DNA of 64,000 bases from Sulfurimonas marina (GTDB lineage: Bacteria > Campylobacterota > Campylobacteria > Campylobacterales > Sulfurimonadaceae). Where the stretch lies: positions 1,426,001 to 1,490,000 of the forward strand of contig NZ_CP041165.1 in NCBI RefSeq assembly GCF_014905095.1. Reading direction: 5' to 3'. A program made the position numbers and the translations under genes. The notes beneath the pieces were generated by a model. The model saw nothing but the letters and a program-made list of their open reading frames with translations. It did not search any database and was not told where the DNA came from. Every line of letters begins with the position of its first letter. Position 1 is the first letter of the stretch. Shown here piece after piece: positions 38,882-43,982 of this stretch.

Positions 38882-39181
38882 TTGAACTCCTCCTTTGAAA
38901 AACTTATGAAGGCCAAATCACTCCTTGGTCTTCGTGAAAAATCCTCCCTTAAAGAGATAAAACAAAAATACAAACTCCTTATGAAAAAATGGCATCCAGA
39001 TAAACATAAAGAGAATCCTGAACGTGCTACACAGATGAGTATGCAGATAAATGAAGCGTATGAGACTATTATGAACTATTGCGACAGTTTTGAGTATCCG
39101 TTTGATGAAGAGAGCATAAAAGCAGCTACATACACTCCACAAGAGTGGTGGAATGATAAATTCGGCCCTAATAATAATTAA
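38882..39181 (+). CDS. Stand-alone J-domain protein
   Basis: The 99-residue protein starts at TTG, six bases after the ftsZ stop. It is almost all J domain: AKSLLGLREKSSLKEIKQKYKLLMKKWHPDKHKENPERATQMSMQINEAYETIM, with HPD near residues 38-40. A short tail (YTPQEWWNDKFGPNNN) follows. Without client-binding domains, it probably recruits DnaK to one specific place or partner. Its position right after ftsZ suggests a link with division, an inference only. It overlaps the convergent membrane gene by four bases. Confidence 0.85.
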   Translation: MNSSFEKLMKAKSLLGLREKSSLKEIKQKYKLLMKKWHPDKHKENPERATQMSMQINEAYETIMNYCDSFEYPFDEESIKAATYTPQEWWNDKFGPNNN

Positions 39182-40137
39182 GAGAGCCATACCCCGTTTT
39201 TAAAATAATAACCAACCACAAAATAACTCACTAAAATAAGATATATTAAGTTAAATAGCAGTGAGAGATTAAACCTTCTTTTCAACTCTTTGCTCTCGTA
39301 TTCTAAGAATGCAAGAGAGAGACCGTAATATGTTCCGTAAAATAAAAAGATATATAAAAAATAGCCAATATAACCATAATCTTTTTGCAATAAACAAAAC
39401 GGACAATGGTGTGTCGGAAGCTCATATATATAGGTACCAAAAAACGCTATAAGCGATAATAGAGATATAATCACAAACAGAAGATTCAATACCCCGTAAA
39501 GCACCCTTTGTTTCAAAAAGAAAAAGAGGGTTAAGAGGAGAAAATTTCCATAAAAAAGAGCTACTAAGAAGATATCTTTTGATAATATCTCGGAGATATA
39601 TGTGGTATCTGTAACTGAAAAGATAACACCACAACAATCTACAACACTGTTTATATCTATATTTGAGAACATCACAATCTCTGTAATAATCTCAATCAAC
39701 AGTAGTACAAAAGCAACGATAAAAAGTAAAAATTTAACACGGAAATATTTTTGCTCTTCATACTTCATATCTTCACTATTGAGTGTGATCCAAAACGCAA
39801 ATATATAAAGATTTAACATTTTTAGTATTAGTAACGGCACGCCGTACTCAGTTGCATTGACAACTCCGGCTGCACACATAGCACCTACTAAGATGTTTGA
39901 GATCTTATCAAGAGTAAAGACAAAAAAGACAAACATAGGGATCTTAATAAAGAAAATAAACTTGATAATTGTCGCTGCTAAGTAGCTTTTTTTCTCAAGC
40001 TCATACTGCTGCTGTGTATTTTTATTTCGATCGTAGTTCAGTGTAATTTTTAGACTCAGATAAAAAGCGAGTGAAGCAAAAAACAAAAATAGTATATCAA
40101 CGATATATATACTTAAAACTTCAGGTGTTAAACTCAT
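39178..40137 (-). CDS. Polytopic membrane protein with CC and CPFC motifs, unknown
   Basis: The 319-residue protein has about eight hydrophobic segments. Cysteines stand out: C88 in GAMCAAGVVNATEYG, C168-C169 in DCCGVIF, and H243-H244-C245-C248 in THHCPFCLLQKDYG at the mouth of a helix. The HHCPFC site resembles a redox or metal-binding pair in DsbB/VKOR-like or copper-handling membrane proteins, but I recognise no family. It is the last gene of a four-gene operon with 4-8 base overlaps (NosL-like, FtsX-type permease, ABC ATPase, this). It probably works with that transporter. Confidence 0.7.
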   Translation of the reverse strand: MSLTPEVLSIYIVDILFLFFASLAFYLSLKITLNYDRNKNTQQQYELEKKSYLAATIIKFIFFIKIPMFVFFVFTLDKISNILVGAMCAAGVVNATEYGVPLLILKMLNLYIFAFWITLNSEDMKYEEQKYFRVKFLLFIVAFVLLLIEIITEIVMFSNIDINSVVDCCGVIFSVTDTTYISEILSKDIFLVALFYGNFLLLTLFFFLKQRVLYGVLNLLFVIISLLSLIAFFGTYIYELPTHHCPFCLLQKDYGYIGYFLYIFLFYGTYYGLSLAFLEYESKELKRRFNLSLLFNLIYLILVSYFVVGYYFKNGVWLS

Positions 40138-40790
40138 GCTTTTAGTTGTCCATTTTCGATCTCTATAATGCGATCGACAAAATCAAGTTCAAAAAAGAGC
40201 GGATCGTGCGTAGCGATAATAATTGTTTTGTTTTCACTTTTAAGGGCCTTAATCTGCTCAATAAACTCTAAAGAGAGTTCTCTATCCAGATTTGATGTAG
40301 GCTCATCCGCCAAAATTATTTTCGGGTTGTTTACAATAGCTCTTGCAATCGCTACACGCTGCTGCTGTCCGCCTGAGAGGTTTTGGGAATAATTATCTTT
40401 ATACTCTTGGAGTTTATACATATCCAGCAACCTCTCCAGCCTTGTTTGCAACTCCTTTTTTGAAAGGTTTAACGGTCGCAGAGGAAGAAGAATATTTTCA
40501 GCCACACTCATATTTGGAATAAGATTGTATCTCTGAAAAATAAACCCTATATTGTCACGGCGAAATTCACTTGCAAAATGGTCCGCAATTTTGGCAAGCT
40601 TTTTTCCATCTACTATTACTTCACCGCTTGTCGGTTTTAAAAGTGCCGAGATTAAAGAGAGGATGGTTGTCTTACCGCTGCCACTTACCCCTTTAAGAAC
40701 AATTAGCTCACCCTCTTTAAATGAGAGGTTTATATCTTTGAGAGCAATTTTATCTTTGTACGATTTATTAATATCAATTAACTGGATCAT
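40134..40790 (-). CDS. ABC transporter ATPase, LolD/MacB type
   Basis: The 218-residue ATPase has Walker A GVSGSGKTT (near 34-42), Q-loop FIFQRYNLIPNMSVAENILLPL, signature NLSGGQQQRVAIARA, Walker B IILADEPTSNLD and the switch histidine in IIIATHDPLFF. RYNLIPNMSVAENI places it in the LolD/FtsE/MacB group that works with FtsX-type permeases, which use ATP for mechanotransmission or export rather than classic uptake. It overlaps both neighbours by four bases. Confidence 0.92.
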   Translation of the reverse strand: MIQLIDINKSYKDKIALKDINLSFKEGELIVLKGVSGSGKTTILSLISALLKPTSGEVIVDGKKLAKIADHFASEFRRDNIGFIFQRYNLIPNMSVAENILLPLRPLNLSKKELQTRLERLLDMYKLQEYKDNYSQNLSGGQQQRVAIARAIVNNPKIILADEPTSNLDRELSLEFIEQIKALKSENKTIIIATHDPLFFELDFVDRIIEIENGQLKA

Positions 40791-41956
40791 CTCATCACCT
40801 CATCAGCATCCTGTGTTGCTATCTTCCACGACGGAATAATAGTTGCGGCAATATATACAGGGACACTTAGGAAAAATACGATAGCTAAAGGTTGCAGATC
40901 TACTCTTAAGTCTAAAGAGTCTATCTGCTCTACCCCTGCTATATTTAAAAAGATATCTCTTAAGTAGTAGCCATCAAAAAAGTAAAGATATGCAAAAGCC
41001 AAAACCACACCAAAAATATACGAGAAGATTGAGATAATGCTTGCTTCATATATCTTCACACGCAAAATATCTTCAACTCTCCATCCTAAAGCTTTAAGTA
41101 TCCCGATCTCCCTTTTTTCACTGCTGCTTACACTGTTTGTTTTGTCATATACGATCATAAAAAAGGTAAAAATAGAGATGATAAACAGAGTGATAAATAT
41201 CCCGCTGTCATAATCAAACAGCATCTCAACTTTTGTCTGTTCATCCTCTTTTGTAACTACTTTTGCATTTGGATAGAGTTGTTGCAGTTGTGCAATCACG
41301 TTTATGAGTTCGTTTTGGTTTGAAAGATATATAGCAATATCTGTAAATTCGTTTGCTTTATATCCAAAGATCACTTTAGCATCATCTTTATTCATCACTG
41401 CCAGATATCTTTTATCTATAGCATCACTCTTAAAGCTTTGAGCGATAACCATCTTTTTAACTTTTAAAGAGGGTTGTAAAAAATTAAACTCATCTTTGTA
41501 GTAATTCTTTTCAAAAAGGTTAGCTAAATCTTGTGAGAGGAACATCTCCCCTATTCTTAATTCATCTTCTTTGAGTAACTTTTCAAGATATGGCTCTTTT
41601 TGTGTTTCAAATATATCAACGCCCACTATCTTGAAACTAAGGTTAGCTTGTTTATATTCATACTCCCCGTATACGCGAGCCAGTACATCGTTTACACCGT
41701 AGATCTCATATATTTTATTGAGATTTGTATCATCTATGGTTGTATATCTTTGCGCTTTTTGATTTTGCAGTACGATATCTGGATGTTGGGCCGTAACTTT
41801 ATCAACCTGTTGTTTGATGCTTGTTTGTATCAAAAACAAAGAGGAGAGCAACATCACAAGGAGTGTATAAACAATAACTATAAAAAGGTTTTTGGTAAAA
41901 AAACGAAAAAGCGTATGTAGAGCATACACAAAGAGCTGGGAGTTAAAACTAATCAT
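40787..41956 (-). CDS. ABC transporter permease, MacB/FtsX type
   Basis: The 389-residue protein has an N-terminal membrane helix (about 22-46), a periplasmic domain of about 200 residues and three C-terminal helices (about 255-277, 305-330, 355-378). SSSEKREIGILKALGWRVEDIL is the cytoplasmic coupling helix region of FtsX/MacB/LolCE permeases. Unlike NosY of the NosDFY system, which lacks a large periplasmic domain, it has MacB-type topology. It starts eight bases inside the nosL-like gene and ends in the ATPase gene. Substrate unknown. Confidence 0.88.
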   Translation of the reverse strand: MISFNSQLFVYALHTLFRFFTKNLFIVIVYTLLVMLLSSLFLIQTSIKQQVDKVTAQHPDIVLQNQKAQRYTTIDDTNLNKIYEIYGVNDVLARVYGEYEYKQANLSFKIVGVDIFETQKEPYLEKLLKEDELRIGEMFLSQDLANLFEKNYYKDEFNFLQPSLKVKKMVIAQSFKSDAIDKRYLAVMNKDDAKVIFGYKANEFTDIAIYLSNQNELINVIAQLQQLYPNAKVVTKEDEQTKVEMLFDYDSGIFITLFIISIFTFFMIVYDKTNSVSSSEKREIGILKALGWRVEDILRVKIYEASIISIFSYIFGVVLAFAYLYFFDGYYLRDIFLNIAGVEQIDSLDLRVDLQPLAIVFFLSVPVYIAATIIPSWKIATQDADEVMR

Positions 41957-42614
41957 CTAAATCATACACCGTATCTTCAGTAATTTCATCAAATTTAAGT
42001 ATCTTCTTCCCCTTATGATCAACCATAAACTTCTCTGCAGATTTGAGTGTTTCAAAAGCGATAAACTCATTCCCCATCGGTCCATATACATCACTGCCAA
42101 TTACAAAATAAGATTCTCTTGCCTCTAGCGTTTTTTGTGTGTAATAATCCTGTACTAAAATCTCTTGTATGTTTTTTTGATGTTCAAAGTAGTATTTGAA
42201 AAGATCTTTAATTCCATCGAAAAAGTACGATTTATTATTGTACTGAATCTTTGAGATCCAAGTAGGATACTTATATAAAAACATTCCGCAAACCGGGCAC
42301 TTATCTTCATGAGATACAATTAATTTACCGTAATGTTTCTCTTGTACGTCACTGCGTTGCAGATCCCAGAGATATAAAGAGAGAGCTTCGAGATGTTTCG
42401 GATTTAATTTTTTGCATAAAGATTTTTCATCTATATCTTTGAGTAAAGACTCGTAAGAGCTATAGTGGTTTACATCTATCTGCCGACATCTTGAAGCATA
42501 GATCTTTTTCCCCATAGGATAGATCTTTTTCTCTTTGATCGCAGTTGAATAGTTTGGATATGAATAAAGTGTAGTTGAGAGTAAAAATAGAATAAAAATT
42601 TTAAGAAATAGCAT
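41949..42614 (-). CDS. NosL-type metallochaperone with N-terminal cytochrome-c-like region
   Basis: The 221-residue protein has a signal peptide (MLFLKIFILFLLSTTLYSY), so it is periplasmic. Residues about 100-215 are a NosL domain: CPVCGM at 106-111, the copper-binding motif of NosL, then FFDGIKDLFKYY and GPMGNEFIAF at 178-187. Residues about 34-86 (MGKKIYASRCRQID ... LNPKHLEALSLYLWDL) resemble the first and last helices of a class I cytochrome c, but CxxCH is absent. It is the first gene of an operon with an FtsX-type ABC transporter and a CxxC membrane protein. No nitrous oxide reductase gene is in the window. Confidence 0.78.
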   Translation of the reverse strand: MLFLKIFILFLLSTTLYSYPNYSTAIKEKKIYPMGKKIYASRCRQIDVNHYSSYESLLKDIDEKSLCKKLNPKHLEALSLYLWDLQRSDVQEKHYGKLIVSHEDKCPVCGMFLYKYPTWISKIQYNNKSYFFDGIKDLFKYYFEHQKNIQEILVQDYYTQKTLEARESYFVIGSDVYGPMGNEFIAFETLKSAEKFMVDHKGKKILKFDEITEDTVYDLDD

Positions 42615-42672: not shown

Positions 42673-43155
42673 TTAAGAGATACGTAGCAACATCAAACGG
42701 CGGATAAAGAGTACCAGTAGAGAAACCGCTAAAATTTTAAAGTCAATTTCACTTGCTATATGGATGTTTTGAAATGTATCACTTTGTGTCGCTTCAGTGC
42801 CTAATGCCTGCATAGCTAAAATTTTCGGTGAATATACGGCTGAGAACATTAATGCTGTCGCAATAGTTAAAAAGCAGCTGATAAGTGCAATGTTATCACG
42901 TTGTCCCTGCTTATACATTAGTGCTTCATAAACAAATACATAAGCAGCTAAAAAGTAGATCCAGTAAGAGAATCTGCGAAAAATCTCACCCATAATTATT
43001 CCCGCATTGTAATTGTCTAAAAATATCCCCACCAGCATTGTATCTGTATGGAATACTACAGGTGCCACTATTGCACCAAGTGCTAAAACGCCGCCGAAAC
43101 TTGCAGCTATAACTAATAAATAACTAAAATCTAAAAATATATTTCTTTTGATCAT
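42673..43155 (-). CDS. DUF4149 family membrane protein
   Basis: The 160-residue protein has four membrane helices (about 8-32, 60-78, 88-108, 138-155). FGGVLALGAIVAPVVFHT near residues 20-37 and FRRFSYWIYFLAAYVFVYEA are typical of DUF4149 (TMEM205-like) proteins; MFSAVYSPKI also fits. Function unknown. It overlaps prmC by four bases and closes the M48-prmC operon. Confidence 0.78.
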   Translation of the reverse strand: MIKRNIFLDFSYLLVIAASFGGVLALGAIVAPVVFHTDTMLVGIFLDNYNAGIIMGEIFRRFSYWIYFLAAYVFVYEALMYKQGQRDNIALISCFLTIATALMFSAVYSPKILAMQALGTEATQSDTFQNIHIASEIDFKILAVSLLVLFIRRLMLLRIS

Positions 43156-43982
43156 TGTATTGCCCTTAAGGTAAAACCTCTGTCAAATTCACTGAGGTCT
43201 TTATAAAAATCTAAACTTATGTAATATTTGTTTTTCAAATAATTCTGTATTTTATCTTTTTGATCATAACCCATCTCACAACTAAAAAACTTAATTTTTC
43301 GTTTTAAGACTTCATCAAGAAGTTCTTGAATAATCTCATCGCCGATTTCACCACCGAAAAGTGCATTTTGAGGCTCATATGAAAGGTTTGATTCAAGTGG
43401 TGCATCATTGGCAATATAGGGTGGATTTGAAACAAGATAATCGATCTCTTCATCTACATGATCAAGAAGTGAACCTAAACGTAATTCAACTCTATCTTGC
43501 AGACCAAACTTTTCAAGATTCTTCTTCGTAACTTCCAAAGCTTTAGGGGAGATATCTACCGCTATAAATTTTGCATTTTTAAAATGAAGTGCCAGAATAA
43601 TAGAGATGATACCGCTCCCTACTCCAACCTCAACAAATTGAAAATTAGAGTCAGCTGGTACACGGTTTTTCACTTCATCGATCAGAAGTTCCGTCTCAGG
43701 TCTTGGGATCAAAGCTCCCTCATCTACATAAAACTCTTCAGAGTAAAAACTGACCCTGTTTGTAATATATTCAAGAGGTTCATTTTTAGCACGGCGTTCA
43801 ACCAAAGTAAAAAAATCATCACCGATCTCAACTTCAGAGTTTTGATTGGTGATAAGCCAAAGTTCATCTTTATCAAGATAAAACATCAAAAGCAGCTGTG
43901 CTTCTCTTTGTGAGCGCTCAATATCTGCTAATTGAGCACTTATATCTTTAAGGAGTTCTTTGACTATATATTTGCTTCGCAT
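43152..43982 (-). CDS. prmC: Release factor glutamine methyltransferase
   Basis: The 276-residue enzyme methylates the GGQ glutamine of release factors RF1 and RF2. Marks are an N-terminal helical domain, LIPRPETELLIDEV, the SAM-binding FVEVGVGSGIISIILAL and the catalytic VSNPPYIA (about 186-193). It overlaps the M48 protease gene upstream by 19 bases and the DUF4149 gene downstream by four. Identification is firm from NPPY plus IPRPETE. Confidence 0.94.
   Translation of the reverse strand: MRSKYIVKELLKDISAQLADIERSQREAQLLLMFYLDKDELWLITNQNSEVEIGDDFFTLVERRAKNEPLEYITNRVSFYSEEFYVDEGALIPRPETELLIDEVKNRVPADSNFQFVEVGVGSGIISIILALHFKNAKFIAVDISPKALEVTKKNLEKFGLQDRVELRLGSLLDHVDEEIDYLVSNPPYIANDAPLESNLSYEPQNALFGGEIGDEIIQELLDEVLKRKIKFFSCEMGYDQKDKIQNYLKNKYYISLDFYKDLSEFDRGFTLRAIQ

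Follow-up and report, generated by a model that had tools for sequence, protein, structure and literature searches.

Nitrous oxide reductase (NosZ) is assembled with the help of NosL, an established Cu(I) chaperone for its CuZ site (PMC6530538, PMC7558416) which has been described as lipoprotein-anchored (PMC7558416). In the NosDFY-NosL system this chaperone and an ATP-binding cassette (ABC) transporter are encoded with the copper enzyme. In type VII ABC transporters the energy of ATP hydrolysis is put to work in the periplasm, as set out for FtsEX (PMC11491553). A five-gene insertion, with no function given, has also been drawn between nosL and nosY of Sulfurospirillum cavolei (PMC4794192). 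Here we describe a four-gene unit in a 64,000-nucleotide stretch of the Sulfurimonas marina genome (contig NZ_CP041165.1, positions 1,426,001 to 1,490,000; this whole stretch is referred to as the window). It encodes a NosL protein, a permease and an ATPase of type VII ABC class and a membrane protein with a CPFC motif (the CPFC protein); the permease, ATPase and CPFC genes are referred to together as the trio. The trio with NosL was found to be a real, conserved module with no described function. Its NosL and ABC parts are ordinary, and its novelty lies in the combination of genes and in the CPFC protein itself; it was not classed as a member of NosDFY or of MacAB. We regard it as fairly probable that the four genes constitute a maturation module for periplasm-facing copper enzymes, fed by NosL, driven by ATP and based on a type VII ABC transporter, which would run parallel to NosDFY.

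The host genome (G000) is a single contig of 2.26 Mb which is 99.9% complete. All four genes which a first-pass annotation of the window had placed at 39178-42614, with overlaps of 4-8 bases, were found as minus-strand open reading frames (ORFs). NosL and permease share 8 bases, permease and ATPase 4 bases, and ATPase and CPFC gene 4 bases. Comparison with the nearest relative (G047) gave a ratio of nonsynonymous to synonymous substitution (dN/dS) of 0.05-0.09 for all four genes. The annotation had asked whether the genes might rarely be adjacent elsewhere; the same order was found to recur across Campylobacterales. These low dN/dS values, together with the same gene set in the same order across the Campylobacterales, indicate that the unit is not a chance arrangement. 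The CPFC gene was found in 161 of 397 Campylobacterota genomes and in 34 of 68 genera, all genera listed being within Campylobacterales, and in 79 of the 100 genomes of the window genus. Among 151 CPFC loci (a number which includes some duplicates between collections), the ATPase was present in the same run of genes in 148, permease and ATPase in 130 and NosL in 106. The scan of collections covers the best 80 loci and says nothing on absence outside Campylobacterota; a single locus (L123), which carries the title Acidobacteria, comes from a metagenome bin. A plasmid search gave no match for the unit. At one locus (L037, 7789-9488) the ATPase and permease are split by two unrelated inserted genes, the rest of the unit being intact.

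The complete unit normally has five or six genes, not four. A small gene lies directly upstream of the permease in 40 of the 51 permease loci checked (one or two of the 40 may be chance ORFs); in most of them it has a single hydrophobic segment and overlaps with the start of the permease. This one-helix gene, which is usual between NosL and permease in relatives, has been lost in the lineage of the window: neither the window nor its nearest relatives (L031-L033) carry it. A further NosL-like gene often follows the CPFC gene in relatives. Neither gene was mentioned in the first-pass annotation. It is at 41949-41956, where relatives carry the small gene, that NosL and permease of the window overlap by 8 bases.

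It had been remarked from the window alone that a NosL normally serves NosZ and that no such reductase is encoded here. For the window genome this stands, nosZ giving no match; relatives of several genera, however, carry the system inside nos operons. The order at two loci (L140, L171) is nosG-C1-C2-H-F, NosL, small gene, permease, ATPase, CPFC, nosY and NosL, a similar order is seen at four others (L157, L159, L162, L170), and at L144 and L153 the trio directly follows nosY-NosL. Many members of the window genus have the trio 10-17 kb from nosZ in convergent orientation, and nosZ lies within 25 kb of at least 29 of 150 located CPFC genes. When the suggested co-occurrence check against nosZ was run on the 397 phylum genomes, the CPFC gene was found in 102 of 127 nosZ genomes (Fisher p=5e-29); as the genomes are related, Fisher p-values overstate association and are indicative only. 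Inside the window genus the association had p=0.007 on all 100 genomes and p=0.26 on roughly filtered good genomes. A tree of CPFC sequences was obtained by a quick search, with branch support by the Shimodaira-Hasegawa-like approximate likelihood ratio test (SH-aLRT) only. The nos-linked copies are scattered in it, with 12 label changes of which at least 7 are forced by well-supported branches, and the nos link was therefore gained or lost repeatedly. In one genome (G262) nosZ gives two matches 1.3 kb apart (G262:C1:870653-873755), as if interrupted.

The Sulfurospirillum insertion is like these arrangements in gene order, with a hypothetical gene, an ABC permease, an ABC ATPase and two hypothetical genes standing where the small gene, permease, ATPase, CPFC and NosL-like genes would be expected. 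It is unlike them in having no function or family assigned and in being described for three strains only, and it is equated with the unit by gene order and type, not by sequence. The possibility raised in the first-pass annotation that the cluster is an already described nos or cytochrome-maturation unit is thus half borne out: the genes are present in the nos clusters of many relatives and have been drawn, unassigned, in that of a Sulfurospirillum (PMC4794192), but no function was found for them in the literature searched. The NosDFY-NosL system shares with the unit a copper chaperone and an ABC transporter, as well as a nos operon in relatives. However, NosFY with periplasmic NosD belongs to a different ABC family, whereas the window unit has an FtsX/LolC permease with its own periplasmic domain, no NosD in its operon and the additional CPFC protein, and it occurs without nosZ. 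Since NosDFY and the trio are found together in nos operons, the trio is no replacement for NosDFY. Neither the window genome nor G047 has nosZ, yet purifying selection is evident, and the unit is therefore in use without nosZ.

A further context in relatives is the mcc operon, which encodes the haem c-copper sulfite reductase MccA, an enzyme type counted among the cuproenzymes (PMC7558416). The operon runs mccA, FKBP isomerase, iron-sulfur (FeS) protein, NrfD, CcsBA haem lyase, Sel1 protein and then the unit, so that its 3' end reads NosL, small gene, permease, ATPase, CPFC and NosL-like. The first gene was identified as MccA by seven CxxCH motifs and one CX15CH motif and by its match to PDB 4rkm (E=0), the solved Wolinella MccA, to which the protein of G262 is identical over its full length. 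The Wolinella succinogenes mcc cluster is comparable, the trio with NosL genes closing the mcc operon in G262; it is unlike the present locus in that mccA had no match in G000 or in the 100 genomes of the window genus. No function for the unit was found in the literature, in a search which did not cover the original mcc-cluster papers (Kern 2011, Hermann 2015). The CPFC gene is present in all 55 genomes with this MccA (type 1) among the 397 (Fisher p=4e-25), and in only 7 of the 41 genomes whose octahaem MccA is more distant (type 2; 670-757 bits). Within genus g9 it was found in 34 of 34 genomes with type 1 and in none of nine with only type 2, two of those nine having nosZ. Type 1 genes lie within 25 kb of at least 26 of the 150 located CPFC genes, and among the matches listed no type 2 gene lies within that distance of any. 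The mcc-linked copies fall together as a single group in the CPFC tree (support 97). At L182-L188 a distant octahaem MccA-like protein with CPxC at 396-399 adjoins a cytochrome with six CxxCH motifs, with neither NosL nor the trio present.

As the mcc operons encode both a CcsBA haem lyase and the octahaem MccA, the trio could be supposed to mature multihaem or dihaem cytochromes, NosL then marking a haem step instead of a copper step. A paralogue preceding a dihaem peroxidase and a dihaem cytochrome, and an N-terminal domain of NosL which may resemble cytochrome c and has no CxxCH, could be read in the same way. Against this, MccA type 2 octahaems, some of which adjoin CcsA, occur without the trio, Campylobacterales cytochromes generally have no adjacent trio, and the trio is found in nos operons even though the NosL-assisted assembly of NosZ is a copper step (PMC6530538). 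A role in haem or c-type cytochrome handling is consequently thought quite improbable.

The reading of the unit as a maturation module for copper enzymes builds on the order and conservation of the genes, the residues of their products, the predicted topology and, in relatives, the association with nosZ and mccA, all of which are shown here; from these we infer copper as the substrate, the direction of its transfer and the roles of ATP and of the cysteines. NosL would carry Cu(I) in the periplasm. Hydrolysis of ATP in the cytoplasm by the permease-ATPase complex would move the periplasmic domain of the permease, and this movement may drive metal transfer or the remodelling or opening of the apo-enzyme, rather than transmembrane transport of a solute. 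With its predicted periplasmic cluster of five cysteines, a methionine and a histidine, the CPFC protein may act as a Cu(I) relay, or alternatively as a thiol donor which would keep metal-ligand cysteines reduced. The first-pass annotation had likewise proposed a periplasmic copper- or thiol-handling system. The presence of the same genes in nos and mcc operons and the predicted periplasmic position of the invariant cysteines favor that proposal, although its delimitation as four genes is too narrow.

The CPFC protein was described in the first-pass annotation as an eight-helix protein with C88, C168-C169 and HHCPFC. The AlphaFold2 model agrees, with eight long helices, a mean predicted local distance difference test score (pLDDT) of 89.5 and a predicted template modelling score (pTM) of 0.86. 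An alignment of 50 diverse sequences identified M87, C88, C168, C169, H243, C245, P246 and C248 as invariant, falling in three loops (M87-C88, C168-C169 and H243-x-C245-P-x-C248). Loop charge (the positive-inside rule) predicts that the N terminus, all invariant cysteines, M87 and H243 are on the periplasmic side. No Pfam or NCBIfam family and no PDB sequence match was found for the protein, nor did its model find a fold match in the PDB (Foldseek, best E=1.3). The CPFC motif may resemble the CxxC followed by LxQ of DsbB/VKOR.

These residues also suggest a periplasmic thiol-redox system, in which the CPFC protein would receive electrons from the cytoplasm or membrane. Together with the ABC machine it would maintain the cysteines of both NosL and the client in the reduced state, so that copper or another cofactor could be inserted, copper being carried by NosL alone. 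The five invariant cysteines include a vicinal pair, the CPFC motif is preceded by PTH, the presumed clients MccA and NosZ have metal-ligand cysteines, and a copy without NosL beside a peroxidase fits redox better than copper. In addition, at four loci (L147, L149, L155, L157) a DsbD_2-family protein with an HCIGMCGG motif comes after the NosL-like gene that follows the CPFC gene. DsbB/VKOR and DsbD/CcdA are, like the CPFC protein, helical membrane proteins in which a CxxC and other cysteines lie on the periplasmic side. However, the CPFC protein has eight helices and showed neither a family nor a sequence or fold match to DsbB, VKOR or DsbD, and the constant ABC transporter (ATPase in 148 of 151 loci) would be left without an explanation. 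Such a system is therefore considered unlikely, and maturation of copper enzymes is preferred.

The NosL protein of the window has a signal sequence, an N-terminal, possibly cytochrome-c-like domain (about residues 21-97) and a C-terminal NosL domain, which scored well above the Pfam cut-off of 24 bits for PF05573. Its metal-site motif is C106-P-V-C109-G-M111, and CxxCGM is invariant in 13 relatives. The N-terminal domain comprises 77 residues, and two cysteines in it (C43 and C67) are invariant. The model of this domain has a pLDDT of 83.9, and the top Foldseek match is cytochrome c6, with a template modelling score (TM-score) of 0.57 and a weak E=0.38; the haem motif CxxCH is absent from all 108 distinct matches of the domain. 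In many relatives the haem-less domain lies between two NosL domains. No lipobox cysteine was found in the window NosL, its first cysteine being residue 43, and it is therefore taken to have no lipobox. A second NosL of the window genome lies near G000:C1 488958 (L003, 8776-10045), followed by a DUF4395-like membrane protein. Upstream of it a large molybdoenzyme is encoded together with its FeS and NrfD-like subunits, and no nosZ is present there.

The MacB/FtsX topology and large periplasmic domain attributed earlier to the permease were confirmed by a match to FtsX (cut-off 25.5 bits; see Table 1) and by hydropathy, which gave one N-terminal segment (16-47) and three C-terminal segments (245-273, 302-328 and 352-377). 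The approximately 200 residues separating the first two segments are taken from the sequence to be the periplasmic domain. The ATPase has a Walker A (GVSGSGKTT), a signature (LSGGQQQ) and a Walker B motif (IILADEP). LolCDE, FtsEX and MacAB are alike in having an FtsX-type permease, a large periplasmic domain and a separate or fused ATPase; the unit differs in its partners, which are NosL and the CPFC protein and not a lipoprotein carrier, a hydrolase activator or a membrane-fusion protein. Membership of the FtsX/MacB class would allow MacB-type efflux of copper, another metal or a peptide, with NosL as a periplasmic metal binder. G000 also has separate copper-resistance genes, with a multicopper oxidase beside a P-type ATPase, so copper stress does occur. 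On the other hand, ATPase and permease are separate ORFs, not fused as in MacAB-TolC, the unit has no membrane-fusion protein or outer-membrane channel, and it keeps company with copper enzymes and not with resistance genes. Efflux is accordingly judged very improbable.

The best PDB match of the permease is LolC (7arh, E=1.5e-4), and it also matches the NCBIfam lolCE family (E=1e-9) below the family cut-off. A dedicated LolCDE-like system releasing NosL lipoproteins might be envisaged on this basis, some NosL copies adjoining the unit having a lipobox (NosL_c in L166). The window NosL has none, paralogous trios exist without NosL, and the CPFC protein would be unexplained, so that this role is regarded as extremely unlikely.

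Several observations weigh against maturation of copper enzymes as the function of the unit. The trio is missing from 25 of the 127 nosZ genomes and is therefore not essential for NosZ, and 47 genomes with the trio, that of the window included, are without both nosZ and mccA type 1. NosL is absent from the same run in 45 of the 151 loci, some of these being at contig ends. A paralogous trio without NosL (L024-L028, L030) is followed immediately by genes for a dihaem cytochrome c peroxidase (CCP_MauG) and a dihaem cytochrome, and these copies form a separate group in the CPFC tree (support 99); this peroxidase is not known to be a copper enzyme. MccA type 2 keeps cysteines aligned with C399 and C495 of MccA, which we take to be copper ligands, yet is found without the trio, the absence of which is therefore not explained by missing residues. 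These cysteines were rejected as a discriminator, being present in both types, with a third at 396 in type 2. Finally, in none of the neighbourhoods was the unit found linked to cbb3 genes.

This last point concerns the client in the window genome itself. Among the copper proteins sought, G000, G047 and a third genome with the unit (G082) share only the cbb3 oxidase (ccoN); SCO1, PCuAC and the CuA subunit were not found in these three genomes. By elimination from this short list, the cbb3 oxidase is a candidate client, although a rather doubtful one. The multicopper oxidase was rejected as a client, since G047 and G082, which both keep the unit, do not share it with G000. SCO1 is present in the single trio-less genome examined, which together with the absence of SCO1 and PCuAC from the three genomes gives the only hints of a cbb3 link. 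The locus concerned (L212, G356:C53), from the one good genome of the window genus without the trio among those examined, also has a second oxidase, of caa3-like type, next to its cbb3 genes, as well as a DsbD_2 protein.

Table 1. Genes of the unit and its upstream neighbour (window coordinates)
Feature	Coordinates	Strand	Basis
NosL protein, 221 amino acids (aa)	41949..42614	-	Pfam PF05573 111.9 bits; PDB NosL 7og7 E=1.6e-8
Permease, LolC/MacB/FtsX type (type VII ABC), 389 aa	40787..41956	-	Pfam FtsX C-terminal 49.3 bits; hydropathy
ABC ATPase, FtsE/LolD/MacB type, 218 aa	40134..40790	-	Pfam ABC_tran 128.9 bits; translation
CPFC protein, 319 aa, eight membrane helices predicted	39178..40137	-	no Pfam/NCBIfam family; alignment; AlphaFold2
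DUF4149 membrane protein, 160 aa	42673..43155	-	Pfam PF13664 53.7 bits

The DUF4149 gene sits 58 bases upstream of NosL on the same strand. With prmC (window 42673-43982 for the pair) it stands before NosL at some 40 loci of the window genus and a related genus. This placement may be an ancestral position only, and a role of DUF4149 in the unit is uncertain.

The CPFC protein represents a conserved membrane protein family, found in half of the sampled genera of the phylum and outside every curated library searched. Should it indeed take part in the maturation of copper enzymes, naming of the family would follow, with a predicted fold unmatched among solved structures. More tentatively, the unit may stand for an order-wide new class of metallocentre-assembly machine, in which type VII ABC mechanotransmission would be combined with a five-cysteine protein of unseen fold and, fed by NosL, would serve several unrelated copper enzymes (NosZ, MccA and elsewhere perhaps cbb3, in place of SCO1/PCuAC). 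If maturation of copper enzymes is the true function, clade II bacteria would use the unit as a second ABC machine in assembling nitrous oxide reductase, the only known biological sink of a greenhouse gas. The copper-loading step so far missing for the haem c-copper sulfite reductase would be supplied by it as well, and the question of which genes place Cu(I) beside a haem in MccA becomes testable.

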